Shown: in pieces, positions 16,714 through 20,293 of the stretch | Position numbering within the stretch: position 1 is the first letter of the stretch | Layout of the letters: every line of letters starts with the position of its first letter | NCBI GenBank assembly: GCA_017620455.1 | Contig: JAFZQK010000082.1 | Span: 1 to 29,333 of the forward strand | Reading direction: 5' to 3' | DNA from: Clostridia bacterium | GTDB taxonomy: Bacteria; Bacillota_A; Clostridia; Christensenellales; Aristaeellaceae | DNA length: 29,333 nt | Position numbers and translations under genes: made by a program | Notes under the pieces: model-generated | The model's input: only the letters and a program-made list of their open reading frames with translations | The model's database searches: none | What the model was told of the DNA's origin: nothing

Positions 16714-17619
16714 ATGGATCAATTGGAACGTTTGCGGGCGCTTTGCCCGGGTGCGGACGTGCGCACCGGAGTGCGTTTGGACAGATACACCACGCTAAGG
16801 GTGGGCGGTCCGGCGGATTATTTTTGCGAACCGGAAACCGAGGAGGCCCTCTCCGGGCTGCTGGCCGCGGCGGAAGCGCTGGCTTTGCCGGTGCTGCTCA
16901 TGGGCAACGGCAGCAACCTGCTGGTCCGGGACGGCGGCTTCCGGGGCCTGGCGATCCGGCTGGGCCGGGGGCTTTCCCGGATCGAAAGAACGGAGGGGGG
17001 CCTGCGCGCCGGGGCGGGGGCGCTTTTGAGCGTGCTTTCCCGGACGGCCCAGGAGGAAGCCCTCGCCGGCCTGGAATTTGCCCAGGGCATTCCCGGAAGC
17101 GTGGGCGGCGGGCTGTATATGAACGCCGGGGCCTACGGCGGGGAGCTGGGGCAGGTAACGGAATCGGTGCGGGTGCTCTCCGGCGGCGCGGTCCGCTGCG
17201 TACCCGCCGGGGAGATGGGCTTTTCCTACCGGCACACCCGGGCCATGGACGAAAAATGGGTGATCCTGGGGGCGGATTTCCGCCTGGAAAAGGGCGACCC
17301 CGAGGCCATCGCCGCCGCCATGCAGGATTATGCGTCCCGGCGGCGGGAGAAGCAGCCCCTGGAATACCCCAGCGCCGGCAGCTTTTTCAAGCGGCCCCCG
17401 GGGCATTTCGCCGGCGCGCTGATCGAGCAGGCGGGCCTGAAGGGCTGCGCCGTGGGCGGCGCGCAGGTGAGCCAAAAGCACGCGGGCTTTCTGATCAATC
17501 AAGGCGGCGCCACGGCGGGGGATTTCCTCCGGCTCATGGCCCGCGTACAGGACACGGTGGAAGCGCGCTTCGGCGTCCGGCTGGAGCCGGAGGTGCGCAT
17601 CGTGGGGAGCGAAGGATGA
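16714..17619 (+). CDS. murB: UDP-N-acetylenolpyruvoylglucosamine reductase
   Basis: A 301-residue FAD enzyme of peptidoglycan precursor synthesis; it reduces UDP-GlcNAc-enolpyruvate to UDP-MurNAc with NADPH. FAD-binding blocks are TTLRVGGPADYF (about 26-37), LLMGNGSNLLVRD, FAQGIPGSVGGGLYMNAGAYGG, the active-site PSAGSFFKRP (Ser proton donor) and EPEVRIVG at the C-terminus. The length fits type II MurB. Initiation at 16714 lies close to the predicted transcription start, so the leader is very short. The stop overlaps the whiA start by 4 bp. murB upstream of whiA is a known Firmicutes arrangement, but rapZ and yvcK, usually between them, are absent here. Confidence 0.96.
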   Translation: MDQLERLRALCPGADVRTGVRLDRYTTLRVGGPADYFCEPETEEALSGLLAAAEALALPVLLMGNGSNLLVRDGGFRGLAIRLGRGLSRIERTEGGLRAGAGALLSVLSRTAQEEALAGLEFAQGIPGSVGGGLYMNAGAYGGELGQVTESVRVLSGGAVRCVPAGEMGFSYRHTRAMDEKWVILGADFRLEKGDPEAIAAAMQDYASRRREKQPLEYPSAGSFFKRPPGHFAGALIEQAGLKGCAVGGAQVSQKHAGFLINQGGATAGDFLRLMARVQDTVEARFGVRLEPEVRIVGSEG

Positions 17620-18626
17620 GCTTTTCAGCCCAGGTGAAGCAGGAAATGATGCGGGTGCGGCCGGAAAAGCACTGCTGCATGCTTTCCGAGCTCAGCGCCT
17701 TCACCCAAACCTGCGCGTCCCTGCGCCTCTCCGGCGGCGGCAGGGTGCGGCTGGTGTACGAAACGGAAAACCCGGCCCTGGCCAAGCGCATCTTCCTCCT
17801 GCTCAAAAAGCGCATGGAAATCACCCCGGCCCTGGAATTCAAGCGGCACAAGCGGCTGGGAGGGCGGCGGGCGTCGGTGCTGACGGTGACGGAGGGCGAT
17901 ACCCGGCGGCTGCTCATCGCCCTGCGGATGCTGCAGGAATCCGAATCGGGGGCGGTGTACCGCGGCATCCCCCGGACGGCCATGAACCGGCGCTGCTGCC
18001 GGGCGGCCTTCGTGCGGGCGGCCTTTCTGGGGGCGGGCGCGGTGAGCGAGCCGGAAAGCGGATACCGCCTGGAATTCGTGTCCTCCGGCAGCAAGGCCGA
18101 AACCCTGATGAAGATGCTGGAGAAAAGCGGCATCCAGGCCCTGACGGCGAAGCGCCGGGGCAGCGACGTGGTGTACTTGCGCCGGGGGGACGACGTGGTT
18201 TCCTGCCTGGCGCTGATGGGAGCGCACCGGGCGCTGATGGACCTGGAAAACACCCGCATCCGCCGGGACGGGCGCAACCAGGCCAACCGCGCCCGGAACT
18301 GCGATGAAGCGAACCTGAGAAAACAGCTGGGCGCGGGGGAAAGGCAGCGGCAGGCCATCGTGGGCTATTCCCTGGCCCACAGCCTGGGGGCGCTGCCCCG
18401 GGAACTGCAGGAGATCGGCCGCATGCGGATGCTGCACCCGGAGGTCTCTTTGGAGGAGCTGGGCCAGATGCTCAGCCCGCCGGTGGGAAAATCCGGGGCG
18501 AACCACCGGATGCGCCGGCTGATGCAGATCATAGACGGAGAGAAAACGCAAGAGAGGAAGGATTCACATGGTCAGGCTGACGCTGGATTTGACGGGCGTG
18601 ACCCCCATGACCCGGATGCAGACTGA
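17616..18626 (+). CDS. whiA: WhiA sporulation/division regulator homologue
   Basis: A 336-residue protein. The N-terminal LAGLIDADG-derived domain begins SFSAQVKQEMM and includes CCMLSELSAF and RCCRAAFVRAAFLGAGAVSEPE. The C-terminal helix-turn-helix domain includes NRARNCDEANLRK, RMLHPEVSLEELGQML and the terminal signature GKSGANHRMRRL. In Gram-positives WhiA affects cell division and chromosome segregation; in Streptomyces it is a sporulation transcription factor. The ATG overlaps the murB stop (ATGA). After the normal end of the family the frame goes on for about 20 hydrophilic residues, running 59 bp into the next gene. That tail is unusual and may be only a by-product of the overlap. Confidence 0.93.
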   Translation: MSFSAQVKQEMMRVRPEKHCCMLSELSAFTQTCASLRLSGGGRVRLVYETENPALAKRIFLLLKKRMEITPALEFKRHKRLGGRRASVLTVTEGDTRRLLIALRMLQESESGAVYRGIPRTAMNRRCCRAAFVRAAFLGAGAVSEPESGYRLEFVSSGSKAETLMKMLEKSGIQALTAKRRGSDVVYLRRGDDVVSCLALMGAHRALMDLENTRIRRDGRNQANRARNCDEANLRKQLGAGERQRQAIVGYSLAHSLGALPRELQEIGRMRMLHPEVSLEELGQMLSPPVGKSGANHRMRRLMQIIDGEKTQERKDSHGQADAGFDGRDPHDPDAD

Positions 18627-19596
18627 GCATCTGGCGGAGCTGGCGGCCCGCTTTTCCTCGCGCATCCTGTTTGAGCACCGGAGCCGCATCATCAACGGAA
18701 AATCCATGCTGGGGCTCCTGTCGCTGGGCGATACGAAGGGAGAAACGGTGGAACTGATCTGCGACGGCCCGGATGAAGAAGCCGCCGCCCGGGCCATCCG
18801 GGAGCATCTGCTGCTGGGGGAAGCGCCGCCCAAATCCGCCGCGGACGCCTGGGCGCTGATGCAGCGGGTGAAGGACCGGTTCGCCGCCATCCTGAATGAA
18901 AACCTGGTGGGGCTTTATCTGCACGGGTCCCTGGCGGCGGGGTGCTTTCAGTGGGCCCACAGCGATATCGATTTTCTTGCCGTGGTGAAGAAGGCCCCCT
19001 CCCTGCGGGTCAAAACCGCGCTGCTGGCCGCCCTGCGGGAAATCGAAAAGGACGCGCCGCCCAAGGGCGTCGAAATGAGCGTGCTGCTGGCGAAGGACTG
19101 CCGGGATATCCGGTATCCCATTCCCTTTGAATTGCACTATTCCTCCGGGCACCGCGCGGCCTTCGATCAGGATCCCCAGGGCTTCTGCGAACGCATGCAC
19201 GGCACGGACCCGGATCTGACCGCCCATATCCTCTGCCTCCACGCCTTCGGCCGGGCGGTGCTGGGGCCGGATATCCCCCGGGTGTTCGATCAGGTGAAGC
19301 GGGAGGACGTGCTTCGCGCCCTCCGGTCCGATGCGGACGACGCCCGGGAGCATCTCCACGAAAACCCCATTTATTTTGTGCTGAATCTGTGCCGGGCCCT
19401 GGCCTATGTGCGGCAGGGCCTGGTGCTGACCAAAAAGGACGGCGGTGAATGGGCGCTGCGGGAAGCGCCCCAGCAGTATCAGCCCCTGATCCAGGCGGCG
19501 CTGAACGCCTACGCTTCCGGCCTGGATATGACCTACGACGAAGGGCAGGCGGAGGATTTCTGCCTGGACGCCCTGGAAGAAATCGACCGTGCATAA
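18568..19596 (+). CDS. Fusion: HPr/Crh-like domain + AadA-like nucleotidyltransferase
   Basis: A 342-residue fusion. Residues 1-88 look like a PTS HPr domain: helix AELAARF, strand RILFEH, then NGKSMLGLLSLGDTKGE and GPDEEAAARAIREHL. Ser46 in NGKS falls exactly at the HprK-phosphorylated position of HPr/Crh. The phospho-His15 motif (HARPA) is missing; VTPMTRMQ stands there. Residues from about 95 to the end match AadA-type aminoglycoside adenylyltransferases: LHGSLAAG (Gly120-Ser121), SDIDF (Asp133, Asp135), a third acid Glu169 in GVEMSV, YPIPFELHY, and a C-terminal all-helical part with WALREAPQQYQPLIQ, as in DUF4111/AadA enzymes. GGAAGGA precedes the ATG, which lies 59 bp before the whiA stop. 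crh or ptsH often follows whiA in Firmicutes, so the fusion sits in the crh place. The trait it confers is unknown; resistance is possible but unproved. Confidence 0.85.
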   Translation: MVRLTLDLTGVTPMTRMQTEHLAELAARFSSRILFEHRSRIINGKSMLGLLSLGDTKGETVELICDGPDEEAAARAIREHLLLGEAPPKSAADAWALMQRVKDRFAAILNENLVGLYLHGSLAAGCFQWAHSDIDFLAVVKKAPSLRVKTALLAALREIEKDAPPKGVEMSVLLAKDCRDIRYPIPFELHYSSGHRAAFDQDPQGFCERMHGTDPDLTAHILCLHAFGRAVLGPDIPRVFDQVKREDVLRALRSDADDAREHLHENPIYFVLNLCRALAYVRQGLVLTKKDGGEWALREAPQQYQPLIQAALNAYASGLDMTYDEGQAEDFCLDALEEIDRA

Positions 19597-19615: not shown

Positions 19616-20293
19616 ATGCGGAAGATCATCGCGGTATTATTGGCCCTGTGCCTCACGGCGGGGGCGCTGCCCGTACTGGCGGAAGGGTCCGGCGGGAACA
19701 TCATGACGATGCTGCAGGAAAAAATGAAGAACGACCTGATCACCCGGGAGGAAGCGGCGCCGGCGGAAGAAGTGCAGGCAGATCCCGGAGCGGAGGATCC
19801 CGAGGAAGAAGAGATCACCTCCCTGGAGGAAGACCCTGCCCGGGTGGCGGTGAACCTGCAGGCCATCAAGGTGATGCTGGACGAGAACGAATTGAAGTTT
19901 ACCTATCAGGAAGAGCAGGACAGCTTCCTGCTCAAGTATTCCCTGGAATCGGCCATGGACGCCGCGGACGTCTGGCTGACGGCGTATGACGACGGCGTAT
20001 GGGTCCGGATCGACTATGAAGAGGAGATCCCTGAGGACAAGTGGGATCAGCTGATGATCCTCTGCTCCCTGTTCAACGAGGACATGCGCCTGGGCTGCTT
20101 CTATGTGGACCGGGAGAACGCCTCCATGGGCTACCGCTTCTTCCTGTATACCGACGTTCTGCCTCCCACTCAGCACGCCCTGGCCTTCGCCCTGGTGCTG
20201 GGGATCAGCATGCTGGAATACCGTGGGGACGCCGTGGCGGCGGTGCTGCACAGGAACATGTCCGCCTGGGAAGCTTATATGGCGATCGAATGA
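19616..20293 (+). CDS. Secreted acidic YbjN-like protein
   Basis: A 225-residue protein with a signal peptide (MRKIIAVLLALCLTAGA, predicted cleavage after VLA, before EG). A Glu-rich acidic linker (about 45-78) follows, then a domain of about 140 residues. The pattern LKFTYQEEQDSFLLKY, WVRIDYEEEIP, LCSLFNEDMRLGCFYVDRENASMGYRFFLY and a long C-terminal helix resembles the YbjN / type III chaperone-like fold. That assignment is by pattern only. GGAGGAG lies at the right distance before the ATG at 19616; a start at 19589 has no ribosome site. It is the last gene of the murB operon, 19 bp after the HPr fusion, and is closed by a terminator. Function unknown. Confidence 0.8.
   Translation: MRKIIAVLLALCLTAGALPVLAEGSGGNIMTMLQEKMKNDLITREEAAPAEEVQADPGAEDPEEEEITSLEEDPARVAVNLQAIKVMLDENELKFTYQEEQDSFLLKYSLESAMDAADVWLTAYDDGVWVRIDYEEEIPEDKWDQLMILCSLFNEDMRLGCFYVDRENASMGYRFFLYTDVLPPTQHALAFALVLGISMLEYRGDAVAAVLHRNMSAWEAYMAIE

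Follow-up and report, generated by a model that had tools for sequence, protein, structure and literature searches.

In Bacillus, crh lies directly after whiA, and the HPr-like protein that it encodes, which HprK phosphorylates, is the closest described counterpart of the N-terminal domain considered here. HprK, the presumed kinase of that domain, occurs in many bacteria that lack a complete phosphotransferase system (PTS). According to PMC6916182, a complete PTS, or even a homologue of HprK, is missing from many bacteria. HPr domains are described as modules of larger proteins, namely sigma-54 activators carrying PTS-HPr (PMC6615313) and multiphosphoryl transfer proteins that join HPr to enzyme I or IIA (PMC2405797), and Crh is reported to inhibit the enzyme MgsA only while unphosphorylated (PMC13130090). 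For AadA, the nucleotidyltransferase closest to the C-terminal domain, we took residues and roles from PMC6065190, where Trp112, Asp182 and His/Asn185 are the determinants for spectinomycin and streptomycin, and where it is said of AadA-like enzymes in which no more than the ATP and magnesium residues are retained that they 'may perform a different function'.

The window, which is the whole analysed stretch of 29,333 nucleotides from a Clostridia bacterium, encodes a protein that joins an HPr/Crh-like domain to an AadA-like nucleotidyltransferase, just after whiA. The analysis confirmed this fusion as a real observation. Its features and those of the two genes upstream are as follows.

16714..17619, forward strand: murB, which overlaps the start of whiA (Pfam MurB_C, FAD_binding_4)
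17616..18626, forward strand: whiA, upstream of the fusion (Pfam WhiA_N, LAGLIDADG_WhiA, HTH_WhiA)
18555..18561, forward strand: AGGAAGG, Shine-Dalgarno-like by its sequence, 5' of the ATG at 18568
18568..19596, forward strand: fusion coding sequence, 342 aa, N-terminal Crh/HPr-like domain and C-terminal AadA-like nucleotidyltransferase
18568..18822, forward strand: HPr/Crh-like domain, residues 1-85
18610..18612, forward strand: codon of residue 15, the position of His15 in phosphocarrier HPr; Thr here and His in none of the fusion rows
18703..18705, forward strand: codon TCC of Ser46, the presumed HprK phosphorylation site (113/113 rows; 31/31 loci)
18838..19593, forward strand: AadA/ANT(9)-like nucleotidyltransferase, residues 91-342
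18964..18972, forward strand: codons of Asp133-Ile-Asp135, metal ligands (equivalent to AadA Asp47 and Asp49)
19072..19074, forward strand: codon of Glu169, presumed catalytic base (equivalent to AadA Glu87)

Of 7997 candidates scored in a protein search, 167 matched with an E value of 0.001 or lower, and both PF00381 and PF13427 were found in 112 of the 120 homologues listed; the few with source names in the protein listing are called 'DUF4111 domain-containing protein'. A separate scan of one genome per species yielded 441 relatives. Among the best 80, 31 loci (L001-L031) match the whole protein, with the two domains in a single frame, and 49 match essentially the enzyme part. The 31 fusion loci are from Clostridia, many of them rumen or gut organisms by their titles, and all are metagenome assemblies; one of them (L001, genome G001), 98% identical, stood proxy for the genome of the window. 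The protein has 342 residues, as against about 85 in stand-alone Crh. Its N-terminal part scores over the PF00381 cut-off and, in the predicted structure, matches HPr chains across residues 1-86. Both folds are confidently predicted, the C-terminal part as a complete two-domain AadA fold, and the model is less sure of how the domains are arranged (pTM 0.74). Domain search and structure prediction thus both recovered the two halves proposed in the first-pass annotation.

The start codon lies upstream of the HPr domain in 31/31 loci, with purine-rich stretches before it in most relatives, and homologues gave no sign of a downstream start from which the nucleotidyltransferase alone would be made. 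In 17 pairs that we picked, dN/dS ranged from 0.02 to 0.28 in the HPr domain and from 0.05 to 0.14 in the enzyme; these low values indicate purifying selection on both. The origin of all 31 loci in metagenome assemblies could suggest that the fusion is an artefact of assembly joining, and a wrong start or an enzyme domain kept as an inactive structural part would likewise make it less than it seems. The same joint recurs, however, in 31 loci of separate assemblies as well as in the 112 listed homologues, the three acidic residues of the enzyme are kept in 110-113 of 113 rows, and dN/dS is low. An artefact or a dead protein is therefore very improbable.

The N-terminal domain had been read as HPr-like, with the regulatory serine and without the phosphocarrier histidine, and the residue counts, made over 113 aligned full-length members with the window included, agree. 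Asn43, Gly44 and Ser46, the last of these closing an NxKS motif, are each present in 113/113, and in all 31 loci the serine falls at residue 46, encoded by TCN codons plus one AGC; loss of Ser46 among orthologues, which would have spoken against the reading, was not seen. Position 15 is Asn in 73 rows, Ser in 26, Thr in 10, Asp in 1 and a gap in 3; it is His in none, and the GIHARP context of His15 in PTS phosphocarrier HPr is not present in the fusion. With Thr12 (106), Pro13 (109), Arg16 (110) and Gln18 (113 of 113 rows) nearly invariant, the former His15 loop is now another conserved surface. HPr Arg17 is not kept, so the surface that contacts HprK may differ. Beside Ser46, hydrophobic residues are retained (M47 in 31/32 rows, L48 and L51 in 32/32). 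Ser46-type serines are also found in the HPr of bacteria that do not use them for phosphorylation by HprK, so that conservation of Ser46 alone is no proof of phosphorylation.

The gene order murB-whiA-fusion was found in 30/31 loci, the contig of the remaining one (L006) ending 86 bases upstream of the fusion. In the window the first 59 nt of the fusion also belong to the whiA frame, and the fusion starts inside the whiA frame in 19/31 sequences (the window and 30 loci, L006 left out), which suggests coupled translation. Ten of the 30 loci checked share this exact length with the window; since the whiA stop falls within the codons for a conserved Q-x-E of the fusion, the length may just mark where that frame next meets a stop. 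Downstream of the fusion nothing is constant, no protein cluster being common to more than 6 of 32 neighbourhoods. The next gene in the window (19616-20293) is YbjN-like with a signal-like N-terminus; it occupies the same place in L001, L002 and L018 (50% identity) and not in the other loci.

The fusion is present in 13/200 genomes of the same taxonomic family. In family genomes without it we read 20 places holding an HPr domain only, mostly the best-scoring ones, and 18 of these lie just downstream of whiA; the other two are less than 150 bases from a contig end. In these 20 stand-alone Crh-like proteins Ser46 is always present and His15 always absent. The proposal that the fusion occupies the crh position after whiA was thus borne out in related genomes by both forms of the gene. 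In a tree of the enzyme parts, the 31 fusion members group in a single clade (support 100/99), apart from 48 stand-alone rows (one further stand-alone row, L040, was left out for an internal stop). The fusions are also one clade (99/86) in a tree of the HPr domain, which has 84 columns and unresolved deep branches, and in which the Crh-like rows were excised by their N-x-K-S motif, present in 20/20. Synteny makes it most likely that the N-terminal domain descends from the stand-alone Crh-like protein encoded after whiA in related Clostridia, and the HPr-domain tree does not contradict this. Since the stand-alone Crh-like gene of relatives occupies the same slot, it was probably Crh that acquired the enzyme, most simply by one joining event at the end of the crh gene. 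With its short conserved linker, the fusion persists down to 45-50% identity.

AadA residues were placed on the C-terminal domain by profile alignment. The three acidic ligands noted from the window alone are kept almost throughout (Asp133 in 112, Asp135 in 113 and Glu169 in 110 of 113 rows), as are the equivalents of the ATP ligands (Ser121 in 112, Ser132 in 102, Arg276 in 112, Lys289 in 113 and Tyr315 in 111). From these retained metal and ATP ligands we infer nucleotide transfer. The acceptor side is different. In the sequence alignment, Trp112, Asp182 and His/Asn185 of AadA correspond to variable position 194, variable position 266 and conserved Tyr269. With few exceptions, the 31 fused and 48 stand-alone rows share His190, Ser192, Pro267 and Tyr269, and have His, Trp or Tyr at position 195. 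By alignment, then, the acceptor pocket is conserved but unlike that of AadA, in keeping with the earlier remark that it departs from the streptomycin-modifying enzyme.

The best named folds are AadA and ANT(9), which would suggest an aminoglycoside resistance enzyme; however, the NCBIfam curated cut-offs for ANT_9 (81.1/340 bits) and ANT_3pp_I (51.3/375 bits) were not reached, and the acceptor residues fail as well. With the determinants for spectinomycin and streptomycin not conserved, the fusion should not be called a resistance enzyme, and AadA-like matches in gut metagenomes are not necessarily resistance genes. The MntA antitoxin of type VII toxin-antitoxin systems was also considered and rejected, its model scoring only 13.5/60 bits. 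Related AadA-like enzymes carry other partners: a C-terminal GNAT acetyltransferase domain (L036:630-1865), a C-terminal HIT domain (L055:6160-7386) and an N-terminal GIY-YIG domain (L034:7734-8771). The HIT domain, which we take to be a nucleotide-binding or hydrolysing fold, could act on a nucleotidylylated product.

It is conceivable that an ordinary small-molecule enzyme, resistance-like or detoxifying, was joined to Crh without any phospho-control, Crh keeping its own job and the enzyme gaining only steady expression from the whiA operon. The stand-alone relatives, found in Streptococcus, Clostridium and Lachnospiraceae, are consistent with such an enzyme. They have no constant partner among 108 neighbouring proteins scanned, which we chose from 181 called ORFs, mostly on the same strand (L072, without an ORF, left out); 11 of the 108 are GNAT acetyltransferases, and one relative (L036) is itself fused to GNAT. 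The pocket residues, moreover, do not set fused forms apart from stand-alone ones. Mere tethering fits less well with a fusion of single origin, kept with its short linker to such low identity, and with the absence of the spectinomycin and streptomycin determinants; besides the fusion, moreover, the PF00381 search shows no more than one kind of HPr-fold protein bearing the serine in the fusion genomes. We consider this explanation rather unlikely.

The gated enzyme, which we prefer, requires a kinase, and HprK, which the first-pass annotation had suggested looking for, was found in 30/31 fusion genomes. In the 20 sequences read of these 30, the P-loop (Walker A) GESGVGKS is intact and a MEIRGIGIIDI stretch is common to all. 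The HprK search missed its Bacillus subtilis control, which has hprK, and a negative from the search cannot be taken as absolute. For this reason two models were applied to enzyme I, and both matched that control. The two models name the same 11 of 31 fusion genomes as having enzyme I over the cut-off. The second also has matches below its cut-off, in 13 other fusion genomes as well as in each of the 14 controls; these span only parts 344-561 and 149-311, and we take them to be related PEP-utilising enzymes. Because the fusion loci all come from metagenome assemblies, a missing gene may be a gap, a caution that little affects HprK at 30/31. Across the 200 family genomes, HprK was found in 186 and enzyme I over the cut-off in 32, so that HprK without detected enzyme I is the usual state in the family of G001 and probably predates the fusion. 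By the same token, HprK (186/200) is far more widespread in the family than the fusion (13/200) and equally common where the fusion is lacking, and its presence does not point specifically to the fusion.

His15 and Ser46 are found on different proteins in these genomes, and this partition is the strongest of the new evidence. A His15 HPr occurs in the same 11 fusion genomes as enzyme I, in 15 copies (L081-L091, L171-L174), and none of the 15 has Ser46, position 46 being Lys in ten, Asn in three and Gly in two. The only His15 HPr of one genome (G029; L091) is the C-terminal domain of an EIIC-EIIB-HPr chain, has Gly46 and is encoded just before enzyme I. The HPr that serves the PTS thus offers HprK no Ser46. 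Together with the presence of HprK in 30/31 fusion genomes, this lends indirect support to the control by HprK proposed in the first-pass annotation, whose interpretation is overall supported in part. A small, highly conserved HPr-like protein of about 76-80 aa with VVDAKSILGIFSLDLSKP is present in 28/31 fusion genomes (L111-L130, e.g. L120); in the 20 copies read the serine is present and His15 is not, one copy reading DATS (L128, which was left out of the class table together with L175, the second small protein of G025). By the PF00381 search, the Ser46-bearing HPr-fold candidates for HprK are therefore the fusion and this small protein. The small protein is a possible second substrate of HprK, and could even be the main one. 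Sequence alone thus narrows the HPr-fold substrates of HprK to two proteins, one of them with its own enzyme, and with the candidates down to two the role of HprK without a complete PTS becomes testable.

CcpA was not found over its curated cut-off in any of the 31 fusion genomes (best 229 vs 442.35 bits), which makes it a doubtful output; weaker matches to the ccpA model, presumably LacI-family regulators, occur in 31/31. These matches bear on another reading of the enzyme, in which the Crh domain would dock on a partner of the class known for Crh (HprK, a regulator of the LacI/CcpA type or, like MgsA, an enzyme that Crh inhibits) and the attached nucleotidyltransferase would adenylylate the bound protein. 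GlnD and GlnE, which modify proteins of nitrogen control, offer a parallel. Such docking is compatible with the retained hydrophobic residues beside Ser46, with the presence of possible LacI-family partners in all 31 genomes and with the different function that PMC6065190 allows to AadA-like enzymes keeping only ATP and magnesium residues. The lack of a CcpA over the cut-off argues against it, as does the acceptor cleft, whose conservation extends to members lacking an HPr domain and suggests a small acceptor. A protein target is, in our judgement, distinctly improbable.

We put the chance that the fusion is an HprK-phosphorylated, Crh-gated nucleotidyltransferase at slightly better than even; phosphorylation, catalysis and the control of catalysis are presumed parts of this proposal. 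The Crh domain, having no His15 to carry a phosphoryl group, would present Ser46 in what is predicted to be an intact HPr fold. HprK would phosphorylate Ser46 under plentiful carbon and energy and take the phosphate off again when these run short. The AadA-fold domain would transfer a nucleotide, probably AMP from ATP, to an acceptor that is probably a small hydroxylated molecule, as is suggested by a pocket unlike that of AadA yet conserved in fused and stand-alone members alike. Phosphorylation of Ser46 would then raise or lower transfer activity through the short linker. By analogy, this gating would be a cis version of the control that Crh is reported to exert in trans on MgsA. If so, carbon supply would directly switch a covalent modification. 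A broader proposal, which we advance tentatively and think possible but not probable, is that in this clade of gut and rumen Clostridia, mostly without detected enzyme I, HprK has been uncoupled from sugar transport and from classical CcpA repression, and is a dedicated Ser46 kinase that switches nucleotidylylation of a new acceptor by the fusion, a direct pathway from carbon status to covalent modification.

If phospho-gated, the fusion would be the first case known to us, outside the PTS, of an HPr or Crh domain in control of an enzyme within its own chain, and would link carbon status to nucleotidylylation. No fusion of this kind is described in the titles and abstract openings listed by searches of the open-licence literature on HPr/Crh with nucleotidyltransferases, DUF4111 and HprK without PTS, which agrees with its having been taken as new at first sight. 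Like Bacillus Crh, the protein has the HPr fold and Ser46, lacks His15 and is encoded directly after whiA; unlike it, it carries an enzyme of 250 aa. Residues 16-18, which read A-R-P in HPr and Crh, are R-x-Q in the fusion, and whereas Crh acts with CcpA, the fusion genomes have only the weaker matches to CcpA noted above. The enzyme resembles ANT(9)/AadA in its two-domain fold and in its metal, base and ATP ligands (Asp133, Asp135, Glu169, Ser121, Ser132, Arg276, Lys289, Tyr315), but shares only 19-26% identity with these enzymes (4cs6, 5g4a, 6xxq, 7uy4) and does not keep Trp112, Asp182 and His/Asn185, its conserved pocket (His190, Ser192, Pro267 and Tyr269) being a different one. As in the sigma-54 activators and multiphosphoryl transfer proteins, the HPr domain is a module of a larger protein; in the available text on those proteins the partners are transcription activators or PTS proteins, and no nucleotidyltransferase is described. 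The proposed control of an enzyme by the phosphorylation state of Crh would have its analogue in MgsA (PMC13130090), although MgsA is an enzyme of a glycolytic bypass that is controlled in trans, and the enzyme of the fusion is on the same chain. We class the fusion as a Crh-type regulator in a new architecture, not as an ANT resistance enzyme.
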